A stretch of DNA of 8,962 bases from a bacterium (GTDB lineage: Bacteria > Cyanobacteriota > Vampirovibrionia > Gastranaerophilales > UBA9971), in contig JBAWVS010000072.1 in the NCBI GenBank assembly GCA_037147175.1, positions 1-8,962 on the forward strand, in the 5' to 3' direction. The position numbers were made by a program, and so were the translations under genes. The notes under the pieces were generated by a model. It did no database searches. It worked only from the letters and a program-made list of their open reading frames with translations, and had not been told where the DNA came from. This document shows positions 297 to 8,962 of this stretch, one piece after another; within the stretch, counting starts at the first letter, position 1; the number at the start of each line of letters is the position of its first letter.

Positions 297-2003
297 ATGC
301 AGTGGTTAAATAATTTGAAGATTTCACAAAAGATTTTGGCGTTTGTTGGAATGGCTTCATTATTTATTTGTATTGTCGGGTATGTAGGATTTCATTTTGT
401 CACAAAAGGTGCAAACGACATGACAACTATGTATACGGACAGCTTAATACCGGTAGCAGAGCTTAACCGCTGTGCTCAAGAATTTACTCAAATTAAAGCC
501 GATACTCTTGACGGAATTTATGATCCTGCACAGCGCCAAATTAGAGCAAAAGCCCTATTGGAATCATCTGCAGAGATTAAAACTCTTCTCGGGAAATATT
601 CGACAACTAAACTTGATCCTGAAGAAGTAAAAATGTTAAATGAAATACAAAAGGACTTATCTGCCTTCTATACAAATGTAAAAGAAACAGCAGAAGACTT
701 AAATAAAAATAAGGTATCGGAAGCAAAAAAAGATTTCTATAAAATGGAAGATAAATCTGATGAATTTATAGCTGATATGATTAAACTCTCCGAATACAAC
801 GTAAAAGTTGCCGGTGAACTGAATACTCAAAATGACAAAGATTCTGCTGAATCAATCGCCCTTATAGTCGGTATTATTATTATTGCTGTAGTCTTGGCTG
901 TTGCATTAGGCTTAATGATAGCAAATATGGTTTCAAAGCCGATAAACGCAGTAGTAAAAAACTTAAACGAAATTGCCAAAGGGAATCTCTCAATAGACGA
1001 AGTCCATAATGACTCTAAAGACGAGACGGGAATACTTGCAAAGGCACTTAATCTTACTGTAAAAAACCTCCGCGAACTTATAGGTTCCGTTTCTAAATCA
1101 ATAGAAGAAATTTCTGCAAACTCGGAAGAGATGAGTGCATCTTCTGAACAAACAGCACAAGGAGCACAGCAAACAGCAACCAGCACTCAACAGTTAGCTC
1201 AGGGAGCACAGGAAATTTCCAGAAACGTTGAACTGGGTGCTGCAAGCATCAACGGCTTAAATAAAACAATTCAGGGTGTGGCACAAGAAGCCGTAATCGT
1301 AGCAAAACTCGGTAATGATACAGAAATAAATGCTAACGTAGGTGCTGAACATGTTAAAAAAGCAGTGCTTAAAATAGACAGTATCAAAAACGTCGCAGGT
1401 GCTATTTCTATAAATATTGCAGAACTCGGACAATTAAGTTCTGGTATTGAGCAAATAGTTGATTTAATCAAAAACATAGCAGGACAAACCAACCTTTTAG
1501 CATTAAATGCCGCTATTGAAGCAGCCAGAGCAGGCGAACACGGAAAAGGCTTTGCAGTAGTTGCAGACGAAGTCAAAAAACTTGCAGGACAATCAGCAGG
1601 TGCTACAGAAAAGATTACCGCAATGATTAAAGAAATTCAAAACAAAACACATGTAGCCGTAAATACAATGGATAAAGCAACTAAAGAGGTTGAAGAAGGC
1701 GTGTTCGTTATAAACGATGCAGGAAAAGCATTAGACAATATTATTTCTCAGGTAAAACAGGCTAATATTAAAATTCAGGGTATTACCAAAGAAATAGACG
1801 GCGTTGCAGCAAGTTCAGAAGAAGTTTTACATATGGTTGAAAATATTTCCGCTATAACCGAAGAAACTGCTGCCAGTGCGGAAGAAATTTCAAGCATTAC
1901 CGAAGAACAAACAGCAAGCCTTGAAGAAATAAGTGCAAGTGCTCAAACTCTTGCTTCAGTGGCTGAATCTCTACAAAAGCAGGTTTCTGTATTTAAAATC
2001 TAG
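297..2003 (+). CDS. Methyl-accepting chemotaxis protein (transmembrane receptor, 4HB-HAMP-MA)
   Basis: A 568-residue inner-membrane chemoreceptor that senses a ligand outside the cytoplasmic membrane and controls the CheA kinase through CheW. Residues 13-35 form the first membrane helix. About 36-185 form a helical extracytoplasmic sensor of the four-helix-bundle type, and 187-209 the second membrane helix. The HAMP linker follows (SKPI near 213-216, DETG near 242-245), then a long coiled-coil signalling domain to the C-terminus. The conserved hairpin tip is clear at about 392-434 (core TNLLALNAAIEAARAGE, then GKGFAVVADEV). Glu/Gln/Ala/Ser-rich stretches near 275-300 and 510-550 are plausible methylation helices. 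There is no C-terminal NWETF-like CheR tether. The protein ends in VSVFKI, which is common in non-enteric receptors. The start is supported by the Shine-Dalgarno 6 bases upstream. cheW follows 39 bases later, so they are very likely one operon. The ligand cannot be inferred. Confidence 0.97.
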   Translation: MQWLNNLKISQKILAFVGMASLFICIVGYVGFHFVTKGANDMTTMYTDSLIPVAELNRCAQEFTQIKADTLDGIYDPAQRQIRAKALLESSAEIKTLLGKYSTTKLDPEEVKMLNEIQKDLSAFYTNVKETAEDLNKNKVSEAKKDFYKMEDKSDEFIADMIKLSEYNVKVAGELNTQNDKDSAESIALIVGIIIIAVVLAVALGLMIANMVSKPINAVVKNLNEIAKGNLSIDEVHNDSKDETGILAKALNLTVKNLRELIGSVSKSIEEISANSEEMSASSEQTAQGAQQTATSTQQLAQGAQEISRNVELGAASINGLNKTIQGVAQEAVIVAKLGNDTEINANVGAEHVKKAVLKIDSIKNVAGAISINIAELGQLSSGIEQIVDLIKNIAGQTNLLALNAAIEAARAGEHGKGFAVVADEVKKLAGQSAGATEKITAMIKEIQNKTHVAVNTMDKATKEVEEGVFVINDAGKALDNIISQVKQANIKIQGITKEIDGVAASSEEVLHMVENISAITEETAASAEEISSITEEQTASLEEISASAQTLASVAESLQKQVSVFKI

Positions 2004-2042
2004 TCAATTTCAAAAAAATAATTTACAGAAAGGAAAATCAAT

Positions 2043-2570
2043 ATGGCTTTATTAAATACAGAAAGCGATGAACTACAGCTCATTGCCTTCAAACTCGGCA
2101 AAGAAGAATACACCGTACCTATTGAAACCGTACAAGAAATTATTATGCCTCAAATAACCACTCACATTCCCAAATCTCCTCGATTTGTCGAAGGAATAAT
2201 AAATCTCAGAGGACATATAATTCCTGTAATAGACGGCAGAAAAAGATTCGATATAGAAATTTCGGAAAATAATGCAGACACAAGAGTCATTGTACTTGAA
2301 TTAGATGACCATACCGTAGGCTTAATCGTGGATTCTGTCTCGGAAGTTGTTCATCTTAAGAAAAGCAACATTGAACCAACCCCTATAGAAAGTGACGAAA
2401 ATAGCTTTATTGTAGGAGTCGGAAAACATCAAGACAGGCTTCTTTTATTATTAGATGCTTCTAAAATCCTTGATATAAAAGAGACGGAGCATTTAAAACA
2501 AACATTAGAAATTGCAAATAAGGTTTCAAAGCTACAGGAAACCATTGCAGAAGCAAATGTGAACGTTTAA
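2043..2570 (+). CDS. cheW: CheW chemotaxis coupling protein
   Basis: A 175-residue cytoplasmic scaffold that bridges chemoreceptor tips to the CheA histidine kinase. The CheW fold covers residues about 10-150. It opens with LQLIAFKLGKEEYTVPIETV, which is the first beta strands and the EYxxPI pattern. Next come the hallmark GIINLRGHIIPVIDGR segment (around residues 51-66), VIVLELDDHTVGLIVDSVSEV in the middle, and GVGKHQDRLLLLLDASKIL near the end. A charged helical tail of about 25 residues (151-175) extends past the core. An AGAAAGGA Shine-Dalgarno (2027-2034) lies 8 bases before the ATG. It shares an operon with the receptor upstream and is closed by the terminator at 2592-2627. No cheA, cheY, cheR or cheB is in the window, so partners must lie elsewhere. 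It is a single-domain CheW and not a CheV, because no receiver domain follows. Confidence 0.96.
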   Translation: MALLNTESDELQLIAFKLGKEEYTVPIETVQEIIMPQITTHIPKSPRFVEGIINLRGHIIPVIDGRKRFDIEISENNADTRVIVLELDDHTVGLIVDSVSEVVHLKKSNIEPTPIESDENSFIVGVGKHQDRLLLLLDASKILDIKETEHLKQTLEIANKVSKLQETIAEANVNV

Positions 2571-2800: not shown

Positions 2801-2858
2801 TTCTTAAGCAAAAATAAACTTGGAACTGAAAATATTTTAGATAAAAATCAACATTATG

Positions 2859-2894
2859 AAAAAGAGGTTTGTGGTCAAATTGACCACCAACCTC
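2859..2894 (-). terminator. Strong hairpin with T-run on the - strand (repeat unit 1)
   Basis: Arms 2864-2878 and 2880-2894 form a 15-bp inverted repeat with one mismatch (arm position 7) around a single central base, so the real loop uses a few of the innermost bases. Five A residues at 2859-2863 become a T-run immediately after the hairpin when read on the - strand, which is the layout of an intrinsic terminator for leftward transcription. On the + strand no T-run follows. It lies 234 bases beyond the gpG-like stop codon, behind the twin hairpin at 3008-3043. Confidence 0.7.
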
Positions 2895-3007
2895 AGACTC
2901 AAGAGGGAAAGGAATTAACGGAAAAAAGAATTGACAAATAATATCATTTTTCTCAAGCAAAAATAAACTTGGAACTAAAAATATTTTAGATAAAAATAAA
3001 CATTACG

Positions 3008-3043
3008 AAAAAGAGGTTGGTGCTCAATTTGAGCACTAACCTC
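3008..3043 (-). terminator. Strong hairpin with T-run on the - strand (repeat unit 2)
   Basis: Arms 3013-3027 and 3029-3043 form a 15-bp inverted repeat whose only non-Watson-Crick position is arm position 7. Five A residues at 3008-3012 give a T-run after the hairpin on the - strand. It begins 85 bases after the gpG-like stop, a natural place for the terminator of the gpF-methylase-gpG operon. Compared with unit 1, arm position 11 changes from G-C to C-G on both sides, a compensatory substitution indicating that pairing has been kept by selection. Confidence 0.75.
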
Positions 3044-3127
3044 AAACTCAGGAAGGAAGAGGATTAACGGCAGAAAGAATTTAACAAAAAATATGATTTT
3101 TAATAAACTGTAAAAAATTATGTTATT

Positions 3128-3574
3128 TTATCCAAGATAATTTTGAGCCTCTTTTATAATCTCAGTCTTTTCCTTTTCTCCAAGCTTTAAATAAGGTCGA
3201 GCCGGTATCTTTACTTTTTTATTTCTGCCGGCATCACCGCCAAATTGATGAATAGCCGCATAAACTTTATTTGTGCCGACTACTGCAACATTCTTATCAT
3301 ATTTGCTTGTAATAGAAGCTGAGAGTTCGCCTCTGACCTGTAAAATTCTGCCGGGCCAGTATCCTTTTTTAGTTCGCTGTTTTATTGTGGGCTTAGCAAG
3401 TGAAGTCCATTTATCGGGACGACCTTCTTTTTCAAAGTTTTCCTCGACAGAATCTTGCATAATTCCGGTAATATTTTTCATAAGCGGACGAAGATTTTCA
3501 GTTTTGGAAATTAACTTTTTTAAAAGTTGCTGTATTTCTTTGTCATCAACCTTTATTTCTATCGGTTCCGGCAT
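3128..3574 (-). CDS. Phage virion morphogenesis protein, Mu gpG-like
   Basis: A 148-residue structural/assembly protein of the phage virion morphogenesis family (Mu gpG type), associated in Mu-like phages with head completion or head-tail joining. The central pattern FEKEGRPDKWTSLAKPT, the LQVRGELSASI segment, YAAIHQFGG and IPARPYLKLGEKE follow the family order, and the length is typical. An earlier in-frame ATG at 3604 would add ten residues (MLIIQLWRSS). I prefer the ATG at 3574 because a GGAGAAG Shine-Dalgarno (3579-3585) lies just upstream and MPEPIEIKV is a family-like N-terminus. The gene overlaps the end of the methyltransferase by 29 bases and is the last gene of the - strand block. 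The next genes expected in a Mu-like head module (protease/scaffold, major capsid) are absent and the repeat region follows instead. Confidence 0.87.
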   Translation of the reverse strand: MPEPIEIKVDDKEIQQLLKKLISKTENLRPLMKNITGIMQDSVEENFEKEGRPDKWTSLAKPTIKQRTKKGYWPGRILQVRGELSASITSKYDKNVAVVGTNKVYAAIHQFGGDAGRNKKVKIPARPYLKLGEKEKTEIIKEAQNYLG

Positions 3575-4376
3575 GGAACTTCTCCATAATTGGATAATTA
3601 GCAATTATAAGTTCTTTAAACATTTTATTTTTTCGGTCTCCGCCTTGTTTATTATTGATTCCGTTGAGTCTTTCAACCGCAATCATTTCATAGCCTGTGT
3701 AAAGTTCACGAATTTTGGGAGAATCATCGTAGGAAAGTAAAAATCTTCCCTGAATGTTTCCGAGAGTTTCTCGCAATCTTTCATGCTCGAAGCCTTTTGT
3801 AGAAGTTGTATAATAACCGGCACCGTAGCTGTATGGCGGGTCGCAATAGAAAAATGCATCTTCATGATCGTATTGCTTGATGAATTTTTCAAAATCCCTG
3901 TTTTCGACCATAACTTTATCGAGCCGTTTACAAATAGCATCGATTTTCAGCAGGACATTTCCCTGACTTTTACAAGCTCCGCCTGTAGATTTCTTGACAC
4001 AGCCAAATGTATCTCCTTTTCCGCCGAATGAGCGGGAGATAAGGAAGAGAAAACTTGCCGCTCTTTGAATATCAGTGATTCCTTCTGTGTTTAGAAACTG
4101 CATAAATATTTCCCTGCTGCCCAGAAGATACTGTAATTCTTCCTTTAAGGCATTGGGATGATACTTTACAATTCTGAATAAATTTACAAGTCTCCCGTCA
4201 AGGTCGTTGTAAACTTCCAAATCTGCCCATTTGTCATGATAGAAAAGAACCCAAGCTCCTCCGCCAAAAACTTCTAAATAAGATTTTATGTCTGTGGGAA
4301 TTAACGGCTCTATTTTTTTGCGGAGCAATCTTTTACCGCCGACCCAGTTAATTAATGATCTTCTGTCAATTGTCAT
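3546..4376 (-). CDS. D12-class N6-adenine DNA methyltransferase (phage-encoded)
   Basis: A 276-residue enzyme that transfers a methyl group from S-adenosylmethionine to adenine N6 in a specific DNA sequence. The D12/Dam family order is complete. NWVGGKRLL (residues 10-18) is the family's N-terminal binding motif. EVFGGGAWVLF (35-45) is the FxGxG SAM-binding loop, YNDLDGRLVNLFR (56-68) the acidic motif, and FFYCDPPY (175-182) the catalytic DPPY motif. The length matches the family and no key residue is missing, so it should be active. The recognition sequence cannot be read from the protein; GATC is only a guess from the family. Its ATG overlaps the last 11 bases of the gpF-like gene, and its own end overlaps the gpG-like gene. 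It is therefore embedded in the head operon and co-expressed late. A likely role is protecting phage DNA against host restriction. No cognate endonuclease is next to it. Confidence 0.94.
   Translation of the reverse strand: MTIDRRSLINWVGGKRLLRKKIEPLIPTDIKSYLEVFGGGAWVLFYHDKWADLEVYNDLDGRLVNLFRIVKYHPNALKEELQYLLGSREIFMQFLNTEGITDIQRAASFLFLISRSFGGKGDTFGCVKKSTGGACKSQGNVLLKIDAICKRLDKVMVENRDFEKFIKQYDHEDAFFYCDPPYSYGAGYYTTSTKGFEHERLRETLGNIQGRFLLSYDDSPKIRELYTGYEMIAVERLNGINNKQGGDRKNKMFKELIIANYPIMEKFHAGTDRNKG
3579..3585 (-). promoter_or_regulatory. Ribosome binding site fixing the gpG-like start
   Basis: GGAGAAG on the - strand, four bases before the ATG at 3574 (seven from the GGAG core). It lies inside the 3' end of the methyltransferase gene, so the two genes are probably translationally coupled. 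No comparable site precedes the upstream ATG at 3604. Confidence 0.75.
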
Positions 4377-5202
4377 TTTGCTGCCTCCATTCTTTTATTT
4401 TGCCGGGGTTGTAACTCCAACCTGCATCCGGCGATATTTTGTGACCTGTTAATGAATCCGTATAAACTGCCACAGGTTTTTCTTCGCCTGTTTTCTTTGA
4501 AACCACCTGCATTTCTTCTGATAATTGCCCTTCTGAAGAATCAACATCGAGACTTCTGTCTTTTAAATTGTCATCAGATAAAGCCCTGACTCTGCATCTG
4601 CATCCCCAACCGTTCGGCGGGTAAAATGAATCCCAAAACGGGTCGTCATATCTGAAAACTCTGCCATTAAGCTGTGCGTGAGTCGGTCTTGTTCTTTTAT
4701 CCATCACCGCAACATATTGCCAGTACGGACGATTATCGATATTATCAAGCTGTTCCCTATACCTTCCCGCCATATATGAAGTCTGAATATTTGTCCTGTA
4801 AATTGTTTTTAATCGTCTCATAGAGCCCAGCTGAATTGTTATAGGTTCATCACCGGCAGGAATAAGCGAGATGTCTTTGATTAATTTGCGTTTTAAAAGT
4901 TCATCTCTTACTTCTTCAGGCGTTCCGCTTATTGCTCCCCACCAGCCTTTATCGATAAGTTTTGGCTTAAGTTCTTTTGTGAATTGCTGCAAGGTTATTC
5001 CTTCATCCAGAGATTTTTGAACTATTTCTCTGATGTCAGTTAGAATATCTTCCCGCATAACTTTTGCCACGGTGAATGATCTTGTATGAGCATCCTGCCA
5101 AACTTCATGCCAGTCCCAGCTAAACTTATAGCCTTTAGATTTAAGGTATTTTATTGCCTGCTCAGGCTGAAGAGTTATAAGGTATTTTAAGCTGGAGCAT
5201 AA
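4366..5202 (-). CDS. Mu gpF-like minor head protein (SPP1 gp7 family), 5' end broken
   Basis: A minor head/head-morphogenesis protein of the Phage_Mu_F family, which in Mu-like phages acts with the portal in prohead assembly. Coding continues from the TGA at 4366 back to about 5202, giving about 278 residues. Family-like N-terminal sequence is LKYLITLQPEQAIKYLKSKG, then WDWHEVWQDAHTRSFTVAKV. The Mu_F core follows: RRLKTIYRTNIQTSYMAGRY, RTRPTHAQLNGRVF and the Cys-containing PPNGWGCRCRVRALSD motif. A GTG at 5070 would give a 234-residue protein, but it would discard 40 clearly homologous residues and has no ribosome binding site, so it is not the natural start. The frame hits a stop at 5203-5205 with no ATG, GTG or TTG between. 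An ATG at 5198-5200 lies in another frame and would join the family sequence if one A of the run at 5185-5188 were absent, but it too lacks a Shine-Dalgarno. The gene is truncated or frameshifted exactly where the oppositely oriented tail gene begins. Confidence 0.9.
   Translation of the reverse strand, partial: LCSSLKYLITLQPEQAIKYLKSKGYKFSWDWHEVWQDAHTRSFTVAKVMREDILTDIREIVQKSLDEGITLQQFTKELKPKLIDKGWWGAISGTPEEVRDELLKRKLIKDISLIPAGDEPITIQLGSMRRLKTIYRTNIQTSYMAGRYREQLDNIDNRPYWQYVAVMDKRTRPTHAQLNGRVFRYDDPFWDSFYPPNGWGCRCRVRALSDDNLKDRSLDVDSSEGQLSEEMQVVSKKTGEEKPVAVYTDSLTGHKISPDAGWSYNPGKIKEWRQQNDN
5181..5202. other. Head-to-head breakpoint between phage head and tail modules
   Basis: The leftward gpF-like frame is open up to 5202 and the rightward tail-protein frame is open from 5181. 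Recognisable family sequence ends at about 5192 for gpF (LKYLITL) and starts at about 5193 for the LamG-like protein (tryptophan codon at 5193-5195). Neither frame has a start codon, Shine-Dalgarno or promoter here. I find no recombinase crossover site or long inverted repeat. Only a short imperfect palindrome, GCT-GG-AGC (5191-5198), sits at the joint. Confidence 0.75.
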
Positions 5203-6818
5203 TTAAAAAAGTCAAATGGAACACCATAACTGCTTTATACACATTAATCAGCGGTGGCGGCAACTTCACTATAAAACTCGATAGAACCGCAGCAAATAAA
5301 CTGGCTCTTTATTTATCTTCAAATTTAACTGCTTTTGATATTGTAAACGGTGCAACAAATGGTGTCGGTCTTGGAGTAAAGGCAGATTGGAATACTACAG
5401 GATATTATTACATTAAGCTTTACTTTACAGGAACAGCATATAAAGTTGACTGGTCAACAGACGGAATCAGCTGGACAAACGAACTTACCGTAACAACAAA
5501 TACTGTTGTAACGGCAAATATTACTCAATTAATTTTAGGCGCAACAAATGCTTCTGCAAACTATTTAGCCGGCAATATTGATATGTCGGGGACGAAATTT
5601 GTTATCGGGAGTAACACAGTATTTGACGGAAGTTTAACTTATGTTGCTTCAAATCTTGTAGTAACTTTTCCGAACGGAAAAATCTATGAAATATCGCAAA
5701 TGGGCAATGTCACAGGTTTAACAAATGACGGACCATATACATTTATCATTGAAGAGAACAATTTAACTAAATTACCAAACGGCAATTATTCTGCAATAGC
5801 CACAGGTGTTAAAACGGCATATTCATCAAATGAAGCATCTCCTACAATGACTTCTAATTCAGGACAGGGTTTTGATTGCTGGGTATGTAATTTCAATTCA
5901 GGCACTCCGTATGCAGATATTGGCGTTACTACAGCCTATTATTTGATGGACAGAAACGCCGGAACCTCTGTTACTTTCCCTGAAGGAACAAATCCAACCT
6001 ATGGATTTGTTGTTAAATCAAATATCGGAGCAATCGCCATAAATAAAGTTCAAGTGGAAGGTCCGGGAAACTTTGGGCTCGGCGGTAACTCTATAGTTAG
6101 TATTTTTGGTTCTAACAATGGCACAAGTTGGACTTCACTTGGTTCTGTTCCGTCTAACGGCATCACAGAAATTACAAATACAACAAATTTTCTTTATTAC
6201 TACTTTCAGCCAAACATCAATTTAGTCGGCGGTTACAGTCAATATAATACTTGGCTGAATAATATTAATTTCTGGTATCCGGTCAGCTACAGCGGAGGAA
6301 ATATTACGCAAGATTATACTATTCCTCTTGGAAATGACGGCGATTATGGTCTTGATATAAGTGTAATACCGTATAAAGCTTTAAAACAAATCTCGGGATT
6401 ATTAACCGACAAACAATTTTTAAAAGCCGCAGCAGCAATAAAAACTACCGGAGTTCTTGGTACACCGATAACTCAAGCCTTTAACAGAAGATTCTATACT
6501 AGAATACCTTGCCCGCAATGCAATACGACCACTGCGATAAATCATAATTTGGGTACGGATAATATAAGAATCGGCTTAAAGTTAGTTTGCAAAATCGCTG
6601 AAAGCAGTTTTATTGTCGGTCAAAAAGTTATTCCTCTGGCTAGAACAGTTTCAGCCAGCGAAGAATTCCCTTGCATTATAACCGGAAAAAACAGTTTTGA
6701 TTTTGTCACAGGAAATACAGGCAGTTCAGGATTAATTGTAATCTCTCCCGGCAGAGACAATATGCAACCAACCTACACAAATTGGGATTTAGAAATAATT
6801 GTGGAGGCACATTTTTAA
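5181..6818 (+). CDS. Phage tail/receptor-binding protein with LamG-like and discoidin-like domains, 5' end missing
   Basis: A 545-residue open frame, probably a tail or baseplate adhesion protein that contacts host surface glycans. Residues about 5-155 resemble a concanavalin/LamG jelly roll: IIKKVKWNT, the ISGGGNFTIKLD strand pair, KLALYLSSN, YYIKLYFTGTAYKVDWSTDG, ILGATNASANYLAGNID. About 215-365 resemble an F5/8-type (discoidin) beta sandwich, with TAYYLMDRNAGTSVTFPEG, KVQVEGPGNF and SIFGSNNGTSWTSLGSVPS. The last 110 residues form a tail-protein C-terminal domain of unknown function ending WDLEIIVEAHF. Two CxxC pairs occur (residues 233/236 and 444/447). The ATG at 5583 cuts the LamG domain in half and lacks a Shine-Dalgarno, so I reject it as the natural start. 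No start is visible in the open frame, so the N-terminal part has been lost at the breakpoint. The stop TAA overlaps the next gene's ATG (TAATG), indicating translational coupling. Confidence 0.85.
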   Translation, partial: GILSWSIIKKVKWNTITALYTLISGGGNFTIKLDRTAANKLALYLSSNLTAFDIVNGATNGVGLGVKADWNTTGYYYIKLYFTGTAYKVDWSTDGISWTNELTVTTNTVVTANITQLILGATNASANYLAGNIDMSGTKFVIGSNTVFDGSLTYVASNLVVTFPNGKIYEISQMGNVTGLTNDGPYTFIIEENNLTKLPNGNYSAIATGVKTAYSSNEASPTMTSNSGQGFDCWVCNFNSGTPYADIGVTTAYYLMDRNAGTSVTFPEGTNPTYGFVVKSNIGAIAINKVQVEGPGNFGLGGNSIVSIFGSNNGTSWTSLGSVPSNGITEITNTTNFLYYYFQPNINLVGGYSQYNTWLNNINFWYPVSYSGGNITQDYTIPLGNDGDYGLDISVIPYKALKQISGLLTDKQFLKAAAAIKTTGVLGTPITQAFNRRFYTRIPCPQCNTTTAINHNLGTDNIRIGLKLVCKIAESSFIVGQKVIPLARTVSASEEFPCIITGKNSFDFVTGNTGSSGLIVISPGRDNMQPTYTNWDLEIIVEAHF

Positions 6819-7360
6819 TGAATTACAAAATTATAAACAAAAAAGATAACAGAATTAAAGATATTCCTGTGCAGCCGACACTTGAAAATTTAATCGGCGC
6901 TGATTATTACCCCGATTGGATTGAAGTGCCTGCTGAGTTATACGGCAAAGATATTGAAGTTATTGATGAAAATGTTGTTGAAAAAGCTGTCGATTTAGAA
7001 AAATTAAAACAACAAAAATTTTCAGAAGTTGAATCTGCTTATATAAACTCATTTTTAAACGGGCTTGATTCAACTATCGGCATTAAATTGCATATAAAAC
7101 CTGATGACCAGCTTAATTATATCGGAGCAATGATTGCAACAGCTTCTTTGCAGGATTCAGATATATTGCCTTTCCCTTTGATTGATTTTTACGGCGCAAC
7201 TCAGCAGATCACAGTCGGGCAGTCAAGACAGGCATATCTCGAAATCGTTAATTACAAAGCTCAAATGGAACTTCAAAGAGCAACCCTGCTTGCACAAATT
7301 GCAAATGCTCAAACTGTTGATGAACTCCCGATAATTCCGGAGGTGTTAAATAATGTCTGA
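6818..7360 (+). CDS. Phage tail-associated protein, DUF4376-like
   Basis: 180 residues. The N-terminal ~60 residues (MNYKIINKKDNRIKDIPVQ, then YYPDWIEVPAELYGKDIEVI) resemble the small N-terminal region of proteins lying next to tail-fibre genes. The rest fits DUF4376: a helical KLKQQKFSEVESAYINSF segment, IKLHIKPDDQLNYIGAMIATA, then a long helix YLEIVNYKAQMELQRATLLAQIA and a closing VDELPII. The exact role of DUF4376 is unknown. Its usual position beside tail fibres suggests fibre assembly or a baseplate attachment part. The ATG at 6818 is chosen over an in-frame ATG at 6782 because it follows GTGGAGG (6801-6807) and forms the TAATG overlap with the tail protein's stop. The 6782 start would lie within the upstream gene. 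No membrane segment or signal peptide is seen. Confidence 0.8.
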   Translation: MNYKIINKKDNRIKDIPVQPTLENLIGADYYPDWIEVPAELYGKDIEVIDENVVEKAVDLEKLKQQKFSEVESAYINSFLNGLDSTIGIKLHIKPDDQLNYIGAMIATASLQDSDILPFPLIDFYGATQQITVGQSRQAYLEIVNYKAQMELQRATLLAQIANAQTVDELPIIPEVLNNV

Positions 7361-7700
7361 ATTTGATTGGCAAATAGCAAGAGGAGACACAGATTATCTA
7401 GAAATAGAAGTCGTCAATGAAGAAACAGAAGCACCTGTCGATATTACCGGAGCTGTAATTTATTTCACTGTCAAAAAATCATCTTCCGAATCTGATTCCG
7501 AGGCTTTGATTTATATCGAAATAACTGAGCATACAGATTCTATAAACGGAAAATCAAGGCTGGATATATTATCAGCAGATACTGATTTGCCGATAGGCAG
7601 GTATTTATATGATTTAGTAATAGAATTTCCGGAAGGGGACAGAAAACATTTAATTTCGCCTTCGCCTTTTATCATAACTTCAACAGTTAAAGAGGTTTAA
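7353..7700 (+). CDS. Small beta-sandwich tail/baseplate protein, BppU N-terminal domain-like
   Basis: 115 residues, one compact beta-rich domain. The signature is RGDTDYLEIEVVNEE, DITGAVIYFTVKK, an ALIYIEITEHTDSINGKSRL hairpin, a PIGRYLYDLVIEFPEGDRK strand pair, and SPFIITSTVKEV at the end. This order matches the Ig-like N-terminal domain found at the start of Gram-positive phage upper baseplate proteins and as stand-alone proteins next to collagen-like fibres. It probably links a fibre to the baseplate. The function is inferred from fold pattern and neighbours only. The start at 7353 has a strong GGAGGTG Shine-Dalgarno (7339-7345) and overlaps the upstream stop by 8 bases. The next ATG follows its stop directly (TAAATG), so the four tail genes are one coupled transcription unit. 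Confidence 0.75.
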   Translation: MSEFDWQIARGDTDYLEIEVVNEETEAPVDITGAVIYFTVKKSSSESDSEALIYIEITEHTDSINGKSRLDILSADTDLPIGRYLYDLVIEFPEGDRKHLISPSPFIITSTVKEV

Positions 7701-8962
7701 ATGCAAAATATCTCTGTAAAAATTACAAAAGGAAAACAATTAAAAGTAAACCTGAAGTCCGGTGTTCAAGGACCGCAGGGAGTTATTGGTTTGCAGGGAG
7801 AACAAGGCATTCAGGGTATAAAAGGCGAAAAGGGAAACACCGGCGAACAGGGACTGCAAGGTTTGCAAGGTATGCAGGGTGAGCAAGGATTTAAAGGGGA
7901 CAAAGGCGACAAAGGCGATGCAGGTATACAAGGGATTCCCGGCAATGACGGTTTGCAAGGGCAAAAAGGTGATGCAGGGGAACAGGGAATTCAAGGAATA
8001 AAAGGCGATAAAGGAGATACGGGAGATTCAGGAGTTGCATCTGCTGTTGCTCCTTTGCAATATGTTTCTGAAACAAAAACTATACAAGTTGCATCAGGAT
8101 ATATTATTCCTTCAAGTTCAGGTGACGGAAGTAAATATTTAGCTGATGACGGGTCTTTTAAAACAGTATCGATTCCTTCGGGAACTAAAATCGAAGTTGG
8201 AGATTCAAAAGCTGAAATATCAGATACAGGAAGCAACGGACTTTTTTCAGTAACAATAGATAATGTCGTCAGAATGAATATCAATGAAGATTTCCATTTT
8301 GGAGACGGCAATACTGAATGGTCATCAGGAAATGAATATAAATGTTTATTCGATAAATCAAAAGGTGCGTTCAGAGCCGGTTATATAACTAACGATAACT
8401 GGAATAATAACAAGAGAGGAATTTACAGTGCAGCATTCGGATACAACTGCAGGGGTGCAGGCGATGGTTCTTTTGCAGCAGGTTATAACAATGTTGCCGG
8501 TTATTACAGTGCATCATTTGGCTACAATAACGTAAACGGCGGTGAGGCTTATGGTTTTTGTTGCGGGTACGGCAATTCAATGTCATACAACAACTCGTTT
8601 GTAGCAGGTTACTACAATATTGACGGCGGAAATTTCGTACACGTTATCGGCAATTCCGCAAAGGCTTCAGGAAGCGGTATTGCCTTAACGATGGCTTGCG
8701 GTCAGATAAATTCTGTTGGCGATGCACAGGTTGAAAAAGCTGTAATGAAAGCCGTTACAACAAATGCCGCACAAATATCTATGAATCATGATACCAATAT
8801 CGGCACACAAGTTTTAGGTATCGATATTCCTGCAAAAACCTGTATGGGTTTTACAGCAAGAGTTTCTGCATACAAATCCGATTATTCGCAATCCGCTGAT
8901 TTTGAAATAAAAGGTCAAATCAAAAGAGATAATTCCGGCAACACGACTTTGGTTTGGACAAA
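7701..8962 (+). CDS. Collagen-stemmed phage tail fibre with YadA-head-like repeats, 3' end beyond the window
   Basis: At least 420 residues, open through the right edge. Residues 1-20 are a short lysine-rich attachment segment. Residues 21-113 are 31 unbroken Gly-X-Y triplets, rich in GxQ, GDK and GIQ but with only two prolines, as in bacterial and phage collagens, implying a trimeric rod. A hinge with [12 protein letters not shown] (about 147-158) follows. Residues about 219-330 contain an Asn/Gly/Tyr-rich repeat of 14-15 residues. Motifs such as AAFGYN, FAAGYN, ASFGYN, FCCGYG, FVAGYY and HVIGNS recur, with N-G-rich turns between, like the left-handed beta-roll of YadA-type adhesin heads. 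A further beta domain ([20 protein letters not shown] and onward) runs into the window end and resembles C-terminal domains of phage tail proteins. AGAGG lies 4 bases before the ATG, which abuts the previous stop. The likely role is host-receptor recognition. An intramolecular chaperone or the true C-terminus could lie outside the window. Confidence 0.9.

Follow-up and report, generated by a model that had tools for sequence, protein, structure and literature searches.

Two phage genes truncated at one joint in a Gastranaerophilales genome: a probable internal deletion in a prophage

How do a minor head gene and a tail fibre gene of a phage come to meet head to head, each without its beginning? 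The question is raised by contig C72 of a Gastranaerophilales genome assembly (2.66 Mb in 109 contigs, estimated to be 99.4% complete). The contig is 8962 bp long, and the whole of it is the window analysed here. From the left it carries MCP and CheW genes, then gpG-like, Dam and Mu-F-type head genes on the minus strand, and finally, on the plus strand, a pair of fibre genes (the second with collagen repeats) flanking two small phage genes. Its features are as follows.

297–2570, plus strand: host genes for chemotaxis (MCP receptor and CheW), to the left of the prophage (PF00015, PF01584)
2801–3101, no strand: two imperfect tandem copies of ~150 bp with a hairpin in each, at the left edge of the prophage (sequence comparison)
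3128–3604, minus strand: phage virion morphogenesis (gpG-like) gene, intact, the last of the leftward block (PF05069)
3546–4376, minus strand: D12-class adenine methyltransferase (Dam) gene, intact (PF02086; same neighbours in relatives)
4366–5190, minus strand: Mu-F-type minor head gene (gpF), a pseudogene that retains the Phage_Mu_F domain (PF04233; alignment with the intact C22 and C38 copies)
5189–5191, no strand: probable deletion joint, with AAG common to both sides (similarity to C22 ends at 5191, similarity to C56 starts at 5189)
5190–6818, plus strand: 3′ part of a tail-collar fibre gene (residues 295–836), N-terminal PF12571 domain gone (97% protein identity to the C56 fibre)
6818–7360, plus strand: small tail gene, 3′ neighbour of the fibre gene (weak match to PHROG 1348; same neighbour in C56)
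7353–7700, plus strand: small phage gene, function unassigned (PHROG 1084)
7701–8962, plus strand: collagen-repeat tail fibre gene, broken off by the contig end (PF01391; 93% to C56)
8908–8962, no strand: putative assembly branch point, 55 bp identical to an end of C56 (sequence comparison)

The joint and the two cut genes

The initial annotation had the two reading frames meeting at the joint, and they do so as it described: gpF is open on the minus strand from 4366 to ~5202 and the fibre gene on the plus strand from ~5181, with no in-frame ATG, GTG or TTG before GTG 5070 in gpF or ATG 5583 in the fibre gene. Homology bears out its proposal of a single joint at which both genes are cut short, and places it at 5189–5191. 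In blocks of 15 bp, the match to the C22 gpF gene drops from 73–93% identity up to 5189 to 7–40% thereafter, and the match to the C56 fibre gene rises from 20–47% before 5190 to 73–100% after it. The suggested search for the missing 5′ parts found longer, intact copies of both genes in the same genome, gpF in C22 and C38 and the fibre gene in C56.

Alignment with C22 and C38 showed that the start codon and the first ~4–6 codons of gpF are gone; the remnant still matches Pfam Phage_Mu_F (E 3.9e-28) and PHROG 220 (E 2.4e-93). The fibre gene has lost the first 294 of its 836 codons, and residues 295–836 are 97% identical to the intact 836-residue fibre of C56, a match that, judged on sequence, is far beyond chance. 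The tail-collar N-terminal domain PF12571 occupies residues 3–135 of the intact C56 protein; given the role of this family, the remnant fibre would be unable to attach to the baseplate, and both truncated genes are presumably dead. The fibre had at first been described as LamG-like; none of the domain and profile libraries tried recognized a LamG domain in it. A PDB sequence search with the remnant gave no match, and its single-sequence AlphaFold model (pLDDT 31) was too poor for use. A 17-bp direct repeat ending at 5189 was considered as the cause of the break and rejected, as the intact C22 gene encodes the same peptide repeat (LKYL..IKYLK).

When sought in three genomes of the genus and 10 of the family, the gpF–fibre joint was found only in the genome to which the window belongs. 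The exact junction pattern had no match in IMG/VR, where no relatives of the fibre remnant were found either, and a literature search on these prophages returned nothing.

The window contains the left end of the prophage and reaches neither its right end nor the second integration boundary; the MCP and CheW genes of the host flank have many paralogues. Among named genomes, the closest relatives of gpF are in metagenome-assembled genomes labelled Candidatus Gastranaerophilales or Cyanobacteria bacterium. Assignment to a myophage with a Mu-type head follows from PF04233 and PF05069 in the window and from the portal family PF06074 in the gpF block of C38. The portal gene is gone from the window copy itself; also missing there, presumably by deletion, are the contractile-tail genes (sheath, tube, baseplate J) that are present in C38 and C56. 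Sequence similar to the ~150-bp repeat of the left edge adjoins gpG in C38, C22 and C51, and in C51 it also recurs within a ParB-like gene (L025 11476–11631).

Several other pieces of prophage lie elsewhere in the genome, with tyrosine and serine recombinase genes near related ones. C51 (L025 8813–10043) has a second broken joint, at which a Dam gene without its first ~12 codons adjoins an intact gpG; the same contig carries a reverse transcriptase gene (PF00078; L025 17575–18777), a candidate diversity-generating or defence element, in the vicinity of phage genes and a serine recombinase. A third broken joint, in C96 (L066 813–1190), leads from a tape-measure gene cut after ~358 codons into a 3′-truncated tyrosine integrase gene without its catalytic end, and in this locus the tube and tape-measure genes are separated by a HicAB-like pair. 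C25 has a terS–terL pair and a second terS with a terL fragment. In C22 (L006 5859–11713), a type I restriction system directly adjoins the gpG end of another prophage of the same family.

Orientation of the two blocks in related prophages

The initial annotation expected head and tail genes of a Mu-like genome to be transcribed in one direction and took their opposite strands as a sign of possible inversion. The related prophages do not share that arrangement. C38, a long and apparently intact stretch, carries the whole gpF–gpI interval on one contig. Its leftward block, on the minus strand, comprises gpG, Dam, gpF, Dcm, portal, terL and terS; its rightward block, on the plus strand, comprises protease, capsid, sheath, tube, tape measure, baseplate genes and gpI, followed by the start codon of a fibre gene at the contig end. 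The gpF gene occupies 6179–7006 (minus strand), protease and capsid run from 12636 (plus strand), and gpI ends at 25964.

We compared the layout of 32 related loci. The packaging block is divergent from protease and capsid in all loci that hold both blocks and whose gpF is ~57–90% identical to that of this family (L026, L027, L029, L031, L032, L033, L035 and L056), whereas capsid-bearing loci with a gpF of ~35–56% identity (for example L038, L039, L041–L047, L049–L053 and L057) have a single-strand layout. Thus the Gastranaerophilales phages with Mu-type heads (L026–L036, L056) have a P2-like divergent layout, and their distant relatives (L037–L057) use one strand; an ancestral inversion of the packaging and gpF block would explain this difference. 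As the two blocks are naturally divergent in this phage group, their opposite strands in the window are no evidence for inversion. The head-to-head orientation is normal for the group, and the joint is accordingly that of a collinear deletion. According to the initial annotation, homologous phages with the same divergent arrangement and intact proteins starting at GTG 5070 and ATG 5583 would have spoken against a break. The outcome is mixed: the divergent arrangement does exist, but with ~20 kb of genes between the two partners, and the intact proteins are longer and do not start at those codons.

Mu-like phages do invert tail-fibre segments, as in the Mu G segment, and the gene cut here is a fibre gene, so that a programmed inversion, a phase-variable fibre switch or an old inversion might be envisaged. 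However, the partner at the joint is a head gene from ~20 kb away rather than an alternative fibre end, both blocks are oriented as in intact relatives, and the contig runs through the joint without a branch. No inverted repeats such as would mark a Mu G/Gin-type invertible segment were found around it (4900–5500). We regard inversion of any of these kinds as having a negligible chance of being correct.

A deletion of ~20 kb weighed against other origins

We consider it very likely that the joint is the product of an ordinary internal, collinear deletion of ~20 kb in a prophage, that is, of prophage decay. The starting prophage would have belonged to a family of Gastranaerophilales myophages that combine a head of Mu type with a tail of Mu/P2 type, and in whose intact members terS-terL-portal-[Dcm]-gpF-Dam-gpG, directed leftward, diverges from protease-capsid-sheath-tube-tape measure-baseplate-fibre, directed rightward. 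A single deletion, extending from the first codons of gpF through codon 294 of the fibre gene, would then have taken out all that lay between, and the two remnants, with 3 bp of sequence in common, would have been fused head to head. Such a deletion would have taken place physically in the cell, by an illegitimate or microhomology-mediated event. The initial annotation had listed deletion within a prophage as one possible origin of the joint, and it is the one we favour; the absence of inverted repeats and the natural orientation speak against inversion, and chimeric assembly is disfavoured.

As expected for a deletion-degraded prophage, the interval absent here is found in C38 with its order and orientation unchanged. 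Measured there, it spans ~19.0 kb between the endpoint in gpF and the start of the fibre gene, to which 882 bp of the fibre gene are to be added. Copies of phage genes in the genome were counted by similarity searches. The portal gene is present only in C38 and C22, without a third copy, and the baseplate–gpI region only in C38 and C56, so that no other contig of the bin can be housing the missing interval, and no intact version of this prophage is seen among them. The presence of a third capsid-to-tape-measure copy, in C97/C96, counts against the deletion model. In at least two other loci of the genome, genes of this phage family are broken in a similar way; large deletions in its prophages thus look repeated here, which makes ordinary decay more likely.

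If, on the other hand, the assembler or a chimeric DNA fragment had joined unrelated phage pieces, no such chromosome would exist. A bin of 109 contigs with several related prophage pieces carries a general risk of mis-joins, a weak alternative path may have been removed, the two halves differ in their divergence from the resident copies, and neither the 10 family genomes nor IMG/VR yielded a second genome with the same joint. The structure of the assembly speaks to this. Exactly 55 bp are common to C72 and one end of C56, to C97 and the other end of C56, and to C96 and C97, and positions 1–55 of C72 are exactly 55 bp of a 6-bp repeat, ACTCTT. The overlaps would be branch points of a de Bruijn assembly with k=55, and the start of C72 is an assembly break at a tandem repeat. 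The contig traverses the joint unbranched, and the sequence common to the two sides is only AAG. Since about 7% of random joins would have at least 3 bp in common, this microhomology is of little informative value by itself. An assembler with k=55 breaks at shared sequence, yet this one crossed a joint with 3 bp in common; reads must therefore have spanned it, and any alternative context of either side was too rare to break the contig. Furthermore, order and orientation at the joint are those expected of a simple deletion, an agreement not required of a random chimera. We therefore judge a chimeric contig unlikely.

The inequality of the two halves could instead reflect recombination between two different resident prophages, one contributing gpF and the other the fibre gene, with a deletion-like gene order as the outcome. 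Several related prophage pieces are available in the genome, and dS is about 1.1 for gpF against C22 and 0.28 for the fibre remnant against C56. However, phage genomes are mosaic and unequal divergence between their parts is usual, so that this difference is expected in any case; we think an exchange of this kind improbable.

For the deletion within a single prophage, divergence also bears on age. The fibre remnant has a dN of 0.012 and a dN/dS of 0.044 against C56, the neighbouring tail genes have ratios of 0.12–0.16, and those of gpF, Dam and gpG are also low. Neither frameshifts nor internal stops were found in the fibre remnant, the tail genes, gpF, Dam or gpG. The sequences have been under selection for most of their history, and the deletion is, on these comparisons, probably recent. 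A different reading of the surviving genes is that selection maintains what is left of a gutted prophage (Dam, gpG and the distal fibre genes) for the cell's use, for example in methylation-based protection or as a satellite-like element, with the loss of packaging and capsid genes being a functional step; we give this very little credence.

Significance and relation to known phages

Deletion-degraded prophages are common, and the finding itself therefore changes little. It does advise caution: a phage joint with opposite strands implies no inversion until the layout of the clade itself is known. Intact relatives explain each feature of the window, and the divergent layout of the phage group is the only mildly interesting point, these little-described Gastranaerophilales phages combining Mu-type head genes with P2-like divergent late genes and occurring in several copies in one genome.

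In phage P2 (NC_001895), as here, the portal and large terminase genes (Q, P) are divergent from the capsid and tail operons, and its tail order V-W-J-I-H(fibre)-G is that of C56 and C38. Unlike P2, the present phages have Mu-type head genes (Portal_Mu, Phage_Mu_F and a Mu I-like protease) and include gpF, Dam and gpG in the leftward block, and the window copy lacks ~20 kb. With Mu (NC_000929) they share adjacent portal (gp29), gp30/F-type and G genes in the same order, with matching Mu-F and portal families; in Mu, however, one strand carries the late genes, portal through fibre S, whereas here the packaging block is divergent. Closest are the prophages of C38, C22 and C56, which are of the same family, with 78–79% DNA identity over the gpG–gpF part and 92% over the fibre part; they differ from the window in having an intact gpF (C38, C22) or fibre gene (C56), and none of them has the gpF–fibre joint.
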